Source: a virus. From it: a stretch of DNA of 20,250 bases. The stretch is taken from positions 1 to 20,250 of IMG/VR virus record IMGVR_UViG_3300046318_000106; one strand, given 5' to 3'. Position 1 is the stretch's first letter. Each line of letters begins with the position of its first letter. The notes beneath the pieces are model-generated. The model worked only from the letters and a program-made list of their open reading frames with translations. It made no database searches and was not told the DNA's origin. Position numbers and translations under genes: made by a program. Shown here one piece after another: positions 3,681-19,704 of the stretch.

Positions 3681-4686
3681 GTTTAGCCAGGGCTTGACTT
3701 GCAAGATTCTTGCCCTTGCTTTCGCACATAATGTCAAACTGTTTGTTAAACTCTAATGCCCATGCGTTAACAGCATCGTTCCAGTAGAAGTCGCTATGTG
3801 CACGGAGTTTTTGTTTGTTGTGACCTGCACTGATTAAGCTGTCGCGGCATGGCAAACTATTAACAGGATGACCAACAAGGCAATCTTCACGTGACACACT
3901 ATAATGTAAAGTAGGGCGAACGCCGCGCCAAGAATCAATAACATGCTGAACCCGCTCTTCGGTGACAGCCAAGTATTCTCCTTGTCGCACCCAATGATGA
4001 TGAATGTCCAAAACAATTGGAACAAGATCAGATAAGCTAAGGCAATCATCCAATCCATGTGTTATTTCTTCGTTTTCGATGGTAATACAATTTCGTGCTT
4101 CGGGGGTAAGTCTTTTGTAGGCACTGCGGATACCTTCTGGACCGGCTCGACCCGAGATGTGGACGTTGATTTTAAAATCCTGAAACTGTTTGCCGTAACC
4201 CATCCAGCGCGCCATATCCGCATGATATTCAAATTCTTCTATTGAGCGGTCTACAATATCCGGGTTATCACTTGCCAGAACAGTAAACTGGCCAGGGTGC
4301 ATAGACAGGCGAACACCCATCTTGCGAGCCAAATCTCCCACTTTTCCAAATTCTCTTTCACAATAGTTTCTAACGTCGGATAGCCCGTAAAAGAACTTCC
4401 AATCGCGCTGAGTGAACATAGGCAGTATATCGCTGCTGAGTCGTACCATTCTAAGATTTTCATCGAGTGCCCCTACTTTTTTAACAAGTAGTCGAGTAGC
4501 TTCGATGTTACCTTTTACAAGATCCCACAGTTTTTCTTCGGCTACTTGACTGCTTTGTCTATTTAACCAAGCAACGGTAGTAGAGCCGGTGTTAAATTTT
4601 TTAGCATCGTCGGTAGGTTTGATGCCATTAACTTGAGCAGGAGTATCGATCCACTTACAGCAAAACCCTATCCGTTTAACATTCAT
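3670..4686 (-). CDS. uvsE: UV DNA damage endonuclease UvsE/UvdE
   Basis: 338 residues, the usual length for the UvdE family (TIM-barrel endonucleases that nick DNA 5' of pyrimidine dimers and other lesions). It begins MNVKRIGFCCKWI, matching the family's 'R-x-G-Y/F-x' start. Family motifs are in order: RLSMHPGQF (~126-134), NVHISG (~174-179), IENEE (~203-207), LDIHHHW (~226-232), HYSVSRE (~261-267) and HSDFYW (~297-302). These supply the His/Glu/Asp metal ligands. A strong sigma70-like promoter (TTGACT, 17 nt, TATAAT) lies 34 nt upstream, suggesting early expression and a repair role during infection in sunlit water. The 3' end overlaps the convergent plus-strand gene by 11 bp. Product assignment is confident. 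Confidence 0.93.
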   Translation of the reverse strand: MNVKRIGFCCKWIDTPAQVNGIKPTDDAKKFNTGSTTVAWLNRQSSQVAEEKLWDLVKGNIEATRLLVKKVGALDENLRMVRLSSDILPMFTQRDWKFFYGLSDVRNYCEREFGKVGDLARKMGVRLSMHPGQFTVLASDNPDIVDRSIEEFEYHADMARWMGYGKQFQDFKINVHISGRAGPEGIRSAYKRLTPEARNCITIENEEITHGLDDCLSLSDLVPIVLDIHHHWVRQGEYLAVTEERVQHVIDSWRGVRPTLHYSVSREDCLVGHPVNSLPCRDSLISAGHNKQKLRAHSDFYWNDAVNAWALEFNKQFDIMCESKGKNLASQALAKLIL

Positions 4687-4710
4687 ATTTTATCCATTTA
4701 CAAGCAAACA

Positions 4711-4718
4711 CATAAATA
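4711..4718 (+). promoter_or_regulatory. T4-type late promoter motif (CATAAATA) before plus-strand endonuclease gene
   Basis: CATAAATA on the plus strand matches seven of eight bases of the late consensus. It lies 31 nt before the chosen ATG of the GIY-YIG gene and abuts the opposite-strand -10 of the uvsE promoter. Confidence 0.45.
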
Positions 4719-4719
4719 T

Positions 4720-4748
4720 ATTATACACTATTTTCTAATGAGAGTCAA
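4720..4748 (-). promoter_or_regulatory. Sigma70-like promoter for uvsE
   Basis: On the minus strand TTGACT (4748-4743) is followed by a 17-nt spacer and TATAAT (4725-4720). This is a near-consensus host-type promoter pointing at uvsE, whose ATG is 34 nt downstream of the -10. The -35 box ends one base from the start codon of the divergent endonuclease gene. Confidence 0.8.
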
Positions 4749-4749
4749 T

Positions 4750-5529
4750 ATGGCAAATATAAAGAAGCAATCTAAAAAACAATTTCATATTGTTTACCAA
4801 ACAACAAACAAAATAAACAATATGATTTATGTAGGAGCACACTCTACAGATATGTTAACTGACGGATATCTAGGATCCGGTCACCGACTTACCTTGGCTA
4901 TTGAAAAATATGGAATCAACTCTTTTGAAAGAGTTATATTACATACATTTAATACTCCCGAAGAAATGTTTACGAAAGAAGCAGAAATAGTTAATAAAGA
5001 TTTTCTTAAGAGACCTGATGTCTACAACATAGTCGAAGGCGGGTTTGGGGGGTACAATAAAGGAACAACAGGTCTTAAACATTTACACCATTCAGTTTCT
5101 GGTAAACGATGTGCAGTTCATCCTAACACTATTCCTAATATGCTACAGGAAGGATGGGCATTGGGAAGGAATATGTCTTCTACAACAGATACTATTTGGA
5201 TCTATAAAGATGCTGAGAAAAAGATGATATATCCTACTGATTTATCTATATATGTCAAAGAAGGGTGGCAGAAGGGACTTCCTAAATCTCCGACACATGG
5301 AAAAGTTTGGATTTATCATCCTAAGTTGAACGAGTATAGTTTGTGCGAAGAATCTGAACTTTCGATAAAGTTATCTACTGGTTGGATTAAAAAGAAGTGG
5401 GCTCCTGTTAAAAAAGGAGCCGCTTGGGTAAATAACGGTATTGATAATCTCCGAATCCCTAAAAATGAGATAGATAGTTATATTTCTAAAGGTTGGAAAA
5501 AGGGGATGATTACAAATCGGTGGAATTAA
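4750..5529 (+). CDS. GIY-YIG homing endonuclease (Seg-like) with C-terminal Trp/Gly repeats
   Basis: 260 residues from ATG 4750, preferred over upstream in-frame starts because GAGAG precedes it by 5 nt. Residues ~12-105 are a GIY-YIG nuclease: FHIVYQ...NNMIYVGAHST gives the degenerate GIY/YIG pair, followed by GYLGSG, AIEKYGINSFER and the catalytic-type Glu in EAEIVNKDF. The rest holds about four repeats ending in a (E/S)-x-GW-x-(K/L)-(G/K) motif (EGWALG, EGWQKG, TGWIKK, KGWKKG), several beginning with (I/V)W(I/V) or AWV; probably tandem DNA-binding modules. No conventional zinc finger is seen. It lies on the opposite strand to its neighbours and overlaps the next gene's 3' end by 20 bp, as expected for a mobile insertion. 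Confidence 0.88.
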   Translation: MANIKKQSKKQFHIVYQTTNKINNMIYVGAHSTDMLTDGYLGSGHRLTLAIEKYGINSFERVILHTFNTPEEMFTKEAEIVNKDFLKRPDVYNIVEGGFGGYNKGTTGLKHLHHSVSGKRCAVHPNTIPNMLQEGWALGRNMSSTTDTIWIYKDAEKKMIYPTDLSIYVKEGWQKGLPKSPTHGKVWIYHPKLNEYSLCEESELSIKLSTGWIKKKWAPVKKGAAWVNNGIDNLRIPKNEIDSYISKGWKKGMITNRWN

Positions 5530-8432: not shown

Positions 8433-8603
8433 TTACCAGTGACGAATGACGCCAGCTATAATAAAACAGTTAGTTATGATATATGATAACACAATAATGG
8501 AACGAACACAAGCAATACGGTCGGCTTCTACGTCCGTATTGCCTGCTTTCTCGCCAAGGGCTTTCGCCCATAGTCTCCAAATTTTACGCAAAAAGATCCT
8601 CAT
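8433..8603 (-). CDS. Small phage membrane protein (56 aa)
   Basis: 56 residues from the internal ATG at 8603: basic start MRIFLRKIWRLWAKALGEKA, then TDVEADRIACVRS, then one hydrophobic segment (IIVLSYIITNCFIIAGVI) and RHW. Basic N-terminus plus one TM helix suggests an inner-membrane protein. Longer in-frame starts exist but run through the overlapping endonuclease gene. The first 20 nt overlap the 3' end of the GIY-YIG gene, so the insertion reaches right up to this gene. Function unknown. Confidence 0.75.
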   Translation of the reverse strand: MRIFLRKIWRLWAKALGEKAGNTDVEADRIACVRSIIVLSYIITNCFIIAGVIRHW

Positions 8604-9279
8604 TCCATTCACGGTGACCTTCACGGCATTTTTCACCGTGCCATCTTTTGTAATTTGGGTAAGATGAAACTTTACCGCAATGTTCACATGTTATTTTGTT
8701 AGCGTTCATTTTTAAAAAACTATGAGTTCCATCTTCTACCATTCTGCTTGCTGTTTCCTTAGAAACTTCTGATTTAGTTCTTCCGCCTTTGCGAAGTCGA
8801 TTAGACAATTCCCTTTGCTTTTCTGAATTTAGGAAAGGATGTGTACCACACTCCATTATTTTTTTTGTCGCGGCACTCATTCTTTCTTTAGCACCAGGTC
8901 TTTTACTTGGGTTGTCTTTTTTCATCCTTTCGGATAGATTCTTTTTAAAATCATCAGACCTAGGAACATGATTTATGTTTAATCCATTTTTGTTAATATA
9001 ATCAAAGCCACCGGTACCACCACGCCTTAAATTGTAAGTATCATCTCTTGATAGGAAGTCTTCATTTACGATTTCTTTTTCCCTATTAATCATAGCATCA
9101 CGGCTATCAAAATACTCAAGAATTGTTTTAACAAACATATCTTTTCCGTATTTTTCATACGCTTTGTTTATAACAGTTCCGCTTCCCATATACCCATCAT
9201 TTATATCTTTTGTCTGATGCACGCCTACATAAATCTTATTGTTTACGATATTTTTAATTTCATACAAGTAATAGAACAT
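8584..9279 (-). CDS. GIY-YIG homing endonuclease (Seg-like) with C-terminal zinc finger
   Basis: 231 residues. GIY-YIG nuclease at residues ~1-95: YYLYEIKN...NKIYVGVHQT, GYMGSG, AYEKYGKDMF and the catalytic-type Glu in NREKEIVNEDF. Residues ~110-185 have NUMOD3-like basic stretches (KKDNPSKRPGAKERMSAATK) probably wrapping DNA. A zinc finger follows, CEHCGKVSSYPNYKRWHGEKC. The last 13 residues, REGHREWNEDLFA, nearly copy the QueD C-terminus REGHRCWGEDLFE encoded just upstream. A perfect late motif TATAAATA is 20 nt upstream and AAGGGGAG precedes ATG 9279, so expression is probably late and efficient. It is inserted between queD and the small membrane gene. Confidence 0.88.
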   Translation of the reverse strand: MFYYLYEIKNIVNNKIYVGVHQTKDINDGYMGSGTVINKAYEKYGKDMFVKTILEYFDSRDAMINREKEIVNEDFLSRDDTYNLRRGGTGGFDYINKNGLNINHVPRSDDFKKNLSERMKKDNPSKRPGAKERMSAATKKIMECGTHPFLNSEKQRELSNRLRKGGRTKSEVSKETASRMVEDGTHSFLKMNANKITCEHCGKVSSYPNYKRWHGEKCREGHREWNEDLFA

Positions 9280-9343: not shown

Positions 9344-9847
9344 TTACTCAAAAAGGTCTTCTCCCCAACATCTATGCCCTTCCCTAAAGGCCATATTGCT
9401 TTGAGTTTCACGAACCTCTACACGATAACACCACAGGCGCTTTGCTTCACCTTCGCCCCACATGTCTGGAATATAGACACCATTAACATACTTGTAAAGT
9501 TGATCAGCAAGTGCTTCACACCCTAGCTTAGGAAGAATAGTAAGCTTTGCCAACTTACGTTTCTCCAGTTCCTTGTAAATCTCAAGTTCCGGATCATCTT
9601 CTGACACTAAAAGAGTATGATCGAATTGACTTTCTAATACTGCCTTCAGCTCTTTCAAGCCGCCATAGTCAGCGGCCCAGTTTCGTGCATCCAGATCATT
9701 TGTGCCAAAGTAAAACTTCATCGTAAAACTATATCCATGGATTAGATTACAATGACTGTCAGCACGCCATTGCCTGTATGCGCAAGGGAATTGCTGATGA
9801 TATTCTTTAGTACTGGTGTACTTGTATGCGATTGATTGATTTGCCAT
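9344..9847 (-). CDS. queD: 6-carboxytetrahydropterin synthase QueD / PTPS family
   Basis: 167 residues of the 6-pyruvoyltetrahydropterin synthase fold. QueD converts dihydroneopterin triphosphate to 6-carboxytetrahydropterin, the step after GTP cyclohydrolase I towards preQ0. Visible: the C33-x3-H37-G site (SHCNLIHGYSF), DYGGLKELK (60-68), FDHTLL with the catalytic-type D76-H77, and VEVRETQSNM with a conserved Glu. The usual zinc ligands appear altered: family 'AH' is AY (23-24) and 'HGH' is HGY (37-39), while H32 is extra. Shine-Dalgarno AAAAGGAG is 8 nt before ATG 9847. A leader with riboswitch-like structure and a 21-codon ORF precedes it. FolE at 19021-19704 would make its substrate. Confidence 0.88.
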   Translation of the reverse strand: MANQSIAYKYTSTKEYHQQFPCAYRQWRADSHCNLIHGYSFTMKFYFGTNDLDARNWAADYGGLKELKAVLESQFDHTLLVSEDDPELEIYKELEKRKLAKLTILPKLGCEALADQLYKYVNGVYIPDMWGEGEAKRLWCYRVEVRETQSNMAFREGHRCWGEDLFE

Positions 9848-9849
9848 CT

Positions 9850-9915
9850 CTAGTCTCCTTTTAAAAGTAGCAAGTTTGATAACACGCAGAGTTTTTTAAG
9901 AGGGTTGAGCGTCAT
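9850..9915 (-). CDS. Putative 21-residue leader peptide of queD
   Basis: ATG at 9915 opens MTLNPLKKLCVLSNLLLLKG-D, stopping with TAG two bases before the queD ATG and overlapping the queD ribosome-binding region. GAGGA lies 6 nt upstream, a good Shine-Dalgarno. It is Leu- and Lys-rich with no regulatory codon run of the amino-acid-attenuation type. Its start lies inside the riboswitch-like structure, so it may be a translational coupler or simply a chance frame in a structured leader. Confidence 0.35.
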   Translation of the reverse strand: MTLNPLKKLCVLSNLLLLKGD

Positions 9916-9926
9916 GTAAGTCCTCT
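9884..9926 (-). ncRNA. preQ1-I-like riboswitch candidate in the queD leader
   Basis: On the minus strand AGAGG (9926-9922) can pair with CCTCT (9903-9899). The 3' arm is preceded by an unpaired AC and followed by TTAAAAAACT, very like the preQ1-I aptamer of the Bacillus subtilis que operon (P1 AGAGG/CCUCU, C before the 3' arm, then an A-rich tail and CU). A pseudoknot of 4 bp between ACGC in the loop (9912-9909) and GCGT in the tail (9887-9884) is possible. Against: the loop is 18 rather than 12 nt, the U after the 5' arm is A, and P2 does not directly follow the A-tract. The gene context (queD) is exactly right. Confidence 0.35.
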
Positions 9927-9939
9927 ATATCTTAATAAT

Positions 9940-9968
9940 ATAGTACTATATTTAATATAATAATGCAA
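9940..9968 (-). promoter_or_regulatory. Sigma70-like promoter for the queD leader
   Basis: On the minus strand TTGCAT (9968-9963), a 17-nt spacer, then TACTAT (9945-9940); overlapping AT-rich -10 alternatives exist just downstream. A start about 7 nt on would place the riboswitch-like hairpin near the 5' end of the RNA. Matches to consensus are moderate. Confidence 0.4.
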
Positions 9969-9973
9969 CAGCT

Positions 9974-10323: not shown

Positions 10324-10914
10324 TTATGTAGGTCTACTCTCAACGATCTTGTCAATAAGTCCATAAGACAATGCTTCTTGTGCACTCATGAACGTATCTC
10401 GATCCATATCTTTTTCGAATTGCTCATATGTTTTACCTGCTGTATTATGCTTAACATACAAATTAGTAAGCATTTCTTTCATTTTGGTAATTTCTTGATA
10501 TTGAATAGCAATATCACTTTGCATACCGCGGGCACCACCGCTAGGTTGATGAATCATATGTCGAGAATGCGGTAACATGAATCGTTTACCGGGTGTGCCT
10601 GCTTGTGCAAGAAATGACCCCATTGAGCATGCCTGCCCCATGACATATGTACATACATCCGGTTTTACAAATTGCATGACATCATAAATTGCCATGCCAG
10701 ATGTAATAACACCACCTGGACTGTTAATGTAAAAGTGAATGTCTTTTTCGCTATCTACACTTTCAAGATGTAGAATTTGAGCTACTATTAGGTTTGAGCT
10801 GTGATCATCTACTGGTCCATTAAGAAATACAATCCTCTCATTTAACAGCCTGGAAAAAATATCAAAGGCCCGTTCACCCTGCCCAGTTTTCTCAATTACC
10901 ATTGGAACTAACAT
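10324..10914 (-). CDS. clpP: ATP-dependent Clp protease proteolytic subunit ClpP
   Basis: 196 residues, full length for a mature ClpP, the serine peptidase that forms two stacked heptamers and degrades proteins delivered by ClpX/ClpA. The catalytic triad is intact: S97 in [10 protein letters not shown]122 in [10 protein letters not shown] and D171 in [16 protein letters not shown] (62-68) and the C-terminal [10 protein letters not shown] are also canonical. There is no propeptide. No Clp ATPase is visible nearby, so it probably uses a host unfoldase or mixes with host subunits. The ATG overlaps the TAA of the preceding 56-aa gene (TAATG). ClpP occurs in other marine phages; whether it serves head maturation or host takeover cannot be told from sequence. 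Confidence 0.95.
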
Positions 10915-19020: not shown

Positions 19021-19704
19021 TTATTTTTTTTGGCATGAGTTTACGATATTCATAAACTCAGCTCTTACTGCTACATCGGATTTAAAACATCCGCCGAGTT
19101 TGGAAGTTACTGTTGAACTACCTGCATCTTCGACTCCTCTAGACTTAACACAATAATGTTGAGCGTTAATAACAACTGCAACATCATCAGTTTCTAAAAT
19201 GTATTGTAGAGAATGATAGATTTGTTCTGTTAAACGTTCCTGTATTTGAGGACGTTTGCTAAAATATTCAACGATTCTATTAATTTTGCTAAGACCTAGA
19301 ACCTTTTGCTTTGGGATATACCCAACTGTAGCCAATCCGTCAATTACTACAAAATGGTGTTCGCAGTTACTTTGAACATTAACATCTCGTTCAATTACCA
19401 TTTCGTCGTAGTTCATTTTGTTGTCAACTGTAGTACATTTTGGAAAGGCATCATAATCTAGCCCCCAGAAGATTTCATTGACATACATCTTAGCAACACG
19501 TTTTGGAGTGTCTGTTAGGCTATCATCTTCTAAATTAAGACCTAATGCTTCCATGATATTCTTGAAGTTGCGTTCAATGATATCAATCTTTTCTTTTCTA
19601 TCTAACAGATTGGGCATGGTAGGAGTTTCTACACCCATTTTAATCAGATGCTCGTGAACTCTTTGACCTAGCTCTGGATCAGTTTTTGTTTTATTATATG
19701 ACAT
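19021..19704 (-). CDS. folE: GTP cyclohydrolase I FolE
   Basis: 227 residues, normal length. Converts GTP to 7,8-dihydroneopterin triphosphate, the entry step to folate and to 7-deazaguanines. Zinc ligands are all present: C114 and H117 in QSNCEHHF, and C185 in HYCVKSRGVED. Other family blocks are LTDTPKRVAKMYVNE (64-77), LGLSKINRIVEYFSKRPQIQ (136-155), LTEQI (158-162) and the C-terminal FMNIV. AAGGAAGGA lies about 8 nt before ATG 19704. With QueD it would feed preQ0 synthesis; QueE, QueC and a DNA transglycosylase were not seen in this window. Confidence 0.95.
   Translation of the reverse strand: MSYNKTKTDPELGQRVHEHLIKMGVETPTMPNLLDRKEKIDIIERNFKNIMEALGLNLEDDSLTDTPKRVAKMYVNEIFWGLDYDAFPKCTTVDNKMNYDEMVIERDVNVQSNCEHHFVVIDGLATVGYIPKQKVLGLSKINRIVEYFSKRPQIQERLTEQIYHSLQYILETDDVAVVINAQHYCVKSRGVEDAGSSTVTSKLGGCFKSDVAVRAEFMNIVNSCQKK

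Follow-up and report, generated by a model that had tools for sequence, protein, structure and literature searches.

The described RNAs closest to the element reported here are the preQ1-I riboswitches (RF00522), which share with it a 5-bp P1 helix, an H-type pseudoknot, an A-rich L3 and a gene of the 7-deazaguanine pathway downstream. In preQ1-I the specificity cytosine lies directly 5′ of the 3′ strand of P1; the consensus at that place is UC in type I and AC in types II and III, with an A-rich tail (PMC11625349). Types I and III have UU after the 5′ strand of P1 (PMC11625349), and 4-5 adenines stand directly before the 3′ strand of P2 (PMC10622847). The preQ1-II and preQ1-III riboswitches fold into HLout or multibranch pseudoknots of 4-5 helices and are about twice as large or larger (PMC11625349). 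What makes these two classes (RF01054 and RF02680) comparable to the element is that they are pseudoknots that sense preQ1 and control access to the Shine-Dalgarno sequence.

In T4-like phages autoregulation by mRNA pseudoknots is known, and T4 gp32 represses via its own mRNA. The autoregulatory pseudoknot of T4 gene 32 is likewise a 5′ leader structure of a T4-like phage mRNA, but its ligand is a protein and the gene is another one. The pathway to preQ0 consists of FolE, QueD, QueE and QueC. Some phages put 7-deazaguanines into their DNA to escape restriction (PMC6884629).

Here we analyze a 20,250-nt stretch of viral DNA (positions 1 to 20,250 of IMG/VR record IMGVR_UViG_3300046318_000106; hereafter the window) in which queD is preceded by a small conserved element. 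We read this element as a cis-acting H-type pseudoknot with which the queD mRNA of T4-like phages begins, and as a candidate riboswitch acting on queD translation, a reading to which we give a probability of about two in three.

Results

A pseudoknot in the queD leader of the window

The features of the locus are listed in Table 1. An earlier note on this DNA had drawn attention to the 126-nt gap before queD (9848-9973, minus strand) and proposed that it holds a preQ1-I-like aptamer. The gap is present as described, and so are the hairpin formed by AGAGG (9926-9922) and CCTCT (9903-9899), the C preceding its 3′ arm, the A-rich stretch TAAAAAACT and, as sequence, an RBS-like AGAGG and a 21-codon ORF (9915-9850). 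The promoter-like pair reported in the gap is a weak match, not better than those in shuffled sequences, and no terminator was found in the window region. For the proposed pseudoknot ACGC/GCGT a pairing partner does exist, but the register was off by one step: the conserved helix, P2, is formed by ATGACGC (9915-9909) and GTGTTAT (9885-9879), which gives seven pairs in the RNA (AUGACGC/GUGUUAU). The minimum-energy fold of the window leader includes this helix. The folding energy of the leader is ordinary (z 0.00) and would not flag the element by itself.

Table 1. Features of the queD leader and of related genes in the window.
Feature	Position	Strand	Remarks
folE (GTP cyclohydrolase I)	19021-19704	-	PF01227, E 3.4e-63; first enzyme of the pathway
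Whole conserved element	9878-9926	-	Covariance model match, 34.2 bits, E 3.4e-10; window excluded from the model
P1 5′ arm AGAGG	9922-9926	-	Pairs with 9899-9903
L1 ACTTAC	9916-9921	-	Second base C invariant; third base T with a single exception among 187 distinct elements
P2 5′ strand ATGACGC	9909-9915	-	Pairs with 9879-9885; compensatory changes; minimum-energy fold
L2 TCAAC	9904-9908	-	Last base C, adjoining the P1 3′ arm, invariant (187/187 distinct elements)
P1 3′ arm CCTCT	9899-9903	-	Covariation with the 5′ arm
L3 TAAAAAACTCTGC	9886-9898	-	13 nt; consensus about WUANANAYUCUGC
P2 3′ strand GTGTTAT	9879-9885	-	Covariation and minimum-energy fold
21-codon ORF MTLNPLKKLCVLSNLLLLKGD	9850-9915	-	Judged coincidental; not conserved in relatives
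queD Shine-Dalgarno AAGGAG	9855-9860	-	7 nt ahead of the start codon; from sequence
queD	9344-9847	-	167 aa; 6-pyruvoyl tetrahydropterin synthase family (QueD); PF01242 (Pfam PTPS), E 3.4e-15

The element is found before queD in related phages

A queD-anchored search of IMG/VR yielded 80 loci whose QueD proteins are 83-90% identical. A covariance model was built from a segment-based alignment of 33 relatives with identical L1 and P2 lengths, the window being left out, and with this model the element was detected upstream of queD in 72 of the 80 loci. Among the eight others, one (L039) breaks off immediately ahead of queD, and seven lack the element.

Two DNA patterns, neither of which holds gene information, were also used. 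The first, which consists of the P1 3′ arm and L3, gave 80 listed loci, 74 of which have a 5-bp P1 in place; nearly all of those listed lie about 50 nt before a QueD homolog. When one extra base was placed in the spacing of this pattern, P1 was present in only one of 74 loci, which is chance level. The second pattern, based on the CCCTCT form of the window, produced 119 matches, and in 116 of these P1 and/or a QueD homolog just downstream was found, with QueD identities to that of the window going down to 25%.

A model search of 26 large phage records returned a single strong match (34-68 bits) for each of 25 records; G012 had none, and the next best match reached 14.8 bits. This single strong match per record indicates that the RNA is tied to queD and not to the other pathway genes, folE and queE, that these phages carry. 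The window itself has one strong match only; its folE is on the same strand as queD, about 9 kb upstream, and is without the element. The apparent exceptions agree with this link to queD. Two of them (L208 and L219) have another gene or a spacer between element and queD. In another locus (L218, 6234-7172, minus strand) two different QueD-family genes stand in tandem behind one element, a canonical-looking QueD of 141 aa and a window-type QueD of 171 aa.

Searching 50,697 isolated-phage records by blastn with the leader or with the element of a relative gave nothing convincing. In eight cultured phages, queD follows directly after or closely abuts another gene, or is without a strong model match. 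A set of genomes from 84,980 species contained a single match to the strict pattern (L309, 5787-5832); the 5.9-kb contig that carries it belongs to an uncultured Bacteroidetes MAG and is possibly a phage contig binned with its host, in which case it could hint at the host. Judged by the sequences searched, the element is essentially restricted to phage contigs and widespread in environmental T4-like phages.

Both helices covary

Alignment of the related phage queD leaders, which the earlier note had suggested, revealed that the leader is conserved and that compensatory changes occur in both P1 and P2. In the set of 33 sequences, 91.5% of the P1 and P2 cells are paired; shuffling lowers this to 70.8% (0/500) and sliding one strand to 35-52%. 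Both sides have changed in eight of the ten pairs, including all five P2 pairs. The 187 distinct elements of the larger set contain 64 distinct combinations of P2 strands, in which 257/320 positions are paired versus 159 ± 10 after shuffling (maximum 204 in 5000 shuffles); pairing amounts to 0.85 in register versus 0.28-0.44 out of register. As the shuffles keep sequence kinship, it is safer to rely on the slid controls and on how many different compensated combinations there are. Fully compensated P2 helices include GGCAU/AUGCC, GACAA/UUGUC, GACUU/AAGUC and CAACG/CGUUG, and the AGAGG/CCTCT of P1 in the window is replaced in relatives by AGCGG/CCGCT, TGCGG/CCGCA, ACCGG/CCGGT or ATCGG/CCGAT.

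Unpaired bases of the element are nearly invariant

The element has the topology of an H-type pseudoknot with two helices and a length of about 46-50 nt. In the 80-locus set the order is a 5-bp P1, NCUU, the P2 5′ strand, UCAUC, the P1 3′ arm, about WUAYAAAYUCUGC (13 nt), the P2 3′ strand and then the Shine-Dalgarno region. More generally, L1 reads NCU(U) with a further 0-6 nt, P2 has 4-7 bp, and the 13-nt L3 ends in a conserved UCUGC. The base ahead of the invariant C of L2 is U in 149, A in 23 and C in 15 of the 187 distinct elements.

Invariance in the larger set is partly imposed, since both DNA patterns prescribe part of L3 and part of the P1 3′ arm, and the L1 C and L2 C were part of the scan descriptor. 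Only the queD-anchored set, which was found without any DNA pattern, is thus free of such bias. The same bases occur there with few variants: L3 is nearly invariant in it as in the larger set, and both cytosines hold in it as well. The invariant C before the P1 3′ arm, the C of L1 and the UCUGC of L3 lie outside both helices, as would be expected for a binding site.

The element lies at the predicted 5′ end of the transcript

Sigma70-like promoters with at least 10 of 12 consensus bases are present in 18 loci, with a -10 box that ends 7-11 nt (mostly 7) before P1; their frequency is 15.8%, against 1.1% in shuffles. In other loci a T4-late-like TAAATA box is found, typically 5-11 nt before P1. 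Near-perfect sigma70 promoters, whose placement would let transcripts begin at roughly the first P1 base, are seen upstream of the element in L044, L049, L071, L218, L255, L261 and others. The presence of two promoter types at the same placement indicates that, whatever the promoter, the mRNA is predicted to have this RNA at or close to its 5′ end. Two observations led us to reject an element acting at the DNA level, as a promoter or protein site: the covariation of P1 and P2 is that of an RNA, and the type of promoter varies while the RNA stays.

Predicted competition with a Shine-Dalgarno hairpin

Of 114 leaders, 75 have a hairpin in which the Shine-Dalgarno sequence is paired and whose 5′ arm shares bases with the 3′ strand of P2; its commonest form is CCUAUG/CAUAGG. 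One locus (L210) has CCUAUA/UAUAGG, a compensated change in this hairpin. The computed accessibility of the Shine-Dalgarno sequence rises from 0.31 to 0.53 when the P2 3′ strand alone is blocked (controls 0.35-0.37), and reaches 0.76 with the full pseudoknot. For the window the computed value goes only from 0.65 to 0.78, and in its subgroup the competition is weak. A clear competition is confined to one subgroup (CCUAUG), and the computed effect is modest; in this commonest subgroup it favors an ON switch.

Pathway genes of the same phages

The window carries both folE and queD. Among 20 phage records, FolE is encoded in 19, QueD in all 20 and a QueE-like radical SAM protein in 19 (16 of them strong matches). 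In the same records no match to the TGT family was found, and matches to QueC were few and weak. The presence of FolE, QueD and the QueE-like protein indicates that these phages can make carboxy-deazaguanine, and preQ0 with a QueC of the host or a divergent one. Two QueE-like proteins (L208, 1391-2275, minus strand; L219, 5653-6510, plus strand) have an apparent long insertion in the iron-sulfur motif, between the CxxxC part and the next Cys (GCNFKC ... STGCDSY), which is unusual for QueE.

Discussion

The covariation and conservation of sequence described above make it almost certain that a conserved structured regulatory RNA precedes queD in these phages. It is probably a metabolite riboswitch: a conserved structured leader is linked to genes of one metabolic pathway, which is one of the marks of a riboswitch. 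That its ligand belongs to the 7-deazaguanine branch has about an even chance. The claim of a metabolite-sensing leader on a phage queD gene stands in part: a conserved leader with P1 and a pseudoknot, tied to queD, is what such a claim would lead one to expect, but the identity with preQ1-I was not borne out. It is odd for a simple feedback on the whole pathway that folE and queE of the same phages are without the element. No earlier description was found in the collection of papers searched, and the element looks like a previously undescribed candidate riboswitch that is absent from Rfam.

The alternative that survives best, though we consider it unlikely, is a protein-binding translational operator, in which QueD itself or a phage RNA-binding protein would bind the pseudoknot and repress queD. 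A T4-type gp23 capsid protein is encoded in 12 of 22 records, which places these among the T4-like phages, where autoregulation through mRNA pseudoknots is known; moreover, the element accompanies QueD only, and folE is without it. However, the QueD proteins encoded downstream are as low as 25-40% identical while the loop bases are nearly invariant, and for this combination a constant small ligand is the easier explanation. The other genes of the records, furthermore, are without the element.

Still less probable is that the element is a genuine preQ1-I riboswitch, whether of type I, II or III or as a copy that has drifted slightly, with preQ1 sensed as usual. The topology is the same, a C lies 5′ of the P1 3′ arm (in 187/187 distinct elements, after U, A or C), L3 is A-rich and a gene of the preQ1 pathway follows. 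Yet no Rfam preQ1 model matched at E≤10 when the window gap and 11 relatives were scanned, so that the check proposed in the earlier note, with the preQ1-I, II and III models, gave no match even at permissive thresholds. RF00522, whose gathering threshold is 39 bits, misses the element in 20 of 20 phage records; more generally, Rfam 15 at gathering thresholds returned nothing for the window, and none of its families matched in the loci tested. The element also differs in its details, the lengths of L1, P2 and L3 included. Instead of the UU after the P1 5′ strand it has N, an invariant C and U; the adenines of its 13-nt L3 do not abut P2, as a conserved YUCUGC intervenes; and it is linked to queD alone and essentially found on phage contigs only. 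Owing to the failure of the Rfam models, the lack of the UU motif and the distance between A-tract and P2, we do not file the element as preQ1-I, although it plausibly works like a preQ1-type switch. Membership of preQ1-II or preQ1-III was rejected, with no match at E≤10 in the same scans and only two helices in the element.

Very improbable, in our view, is a constitutive structural element, stabilizing the 5′ end of the mRNA or enhancing translation, that has no ligand. The predicted location, at the very start of the transcript, and the ability of P2 to free the Shine-Dalgarno sequence would suit such a function, but a general stabilizer would be expected before other highly expressed phage genes as well, whereas there is one copy per record, before queD, and stability alone does not call for invariant unpaired bases. 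Finally, a leader peptide coupled to queD translation, which the good ribosome-binding site and the stop codon beside the queD Shine-Dalgarno sequence in the window had suggested, can be dismissed as the conserved feature, as an ATG in the loop (that of the window lies inside the P2 strand ATGACGC) occurs in just 5 of 116 distinct elements, one of them in the window, and opens ORFs of 20-45 codons encoding unrelated peptides.

On the reading of the element as a candidate riboswitch, the invariant loops may make up the binding pocket of a ligand, which could be a guanine-like compound from the 7-deazaguanine pathway (preQ0, preQ1 or carboxy-deazaguanine) or a related pterin. Such a ligand would stabilize the pseudoknot, and formation of P2 would alter how accessible the Shine-Dalgarno sequence is. 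For the commonest subgroup, where a hairpin is predicted to bury the Shine-Dalgarno sequence, P2 favored by the ligand would release it and so turn queD on. We tentatively extend this, as a possible though less than even prospect, to a new phage-restricted class of riboswitches that switch queD ON, the pseudoknot pulling the P2 3′ strand out of the Shine-Dalgarno hairpin. If this were true, the phage would commit itself to 7-deazaguanine synthesis on sensing a metabolite of the pathway, for example the product of FolE or a deazaguanine.

Riboswitches that evolved in phages have rarely been described, and this candidate is bound to a single enzyme of the 7-deazaguanine pathway. A functional switch would show how a phage times its DNA-modification chemistry during infection, and would provide a second pseudoknot solution beside preQ1-I, useful for structural work on RNA-ligand recognition. 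The element is very small (about 50 nt) and widespread, and it lends itself to direct tests with a short list of ligands.

Other features of the window

A gene for a phage ClpP protease lies upstream of queD in the window (10324-10914, minus strand), and the same neighbor is present in three of the relatives (L031, L044 and L060). Directly downstream of queD is a GIY-YIG endonuclease-like gene (8584-9279, minus strand), which a second ORF (4633-5529, plus strand) resembles. Positions 1-1900 consist of low-complexity repeat coding sequence (LNTLNSLTSL-type repeats and their reverse-strand counterparts), open on both strands, which is possibly a tail-fibre or collagen-like repeat region.
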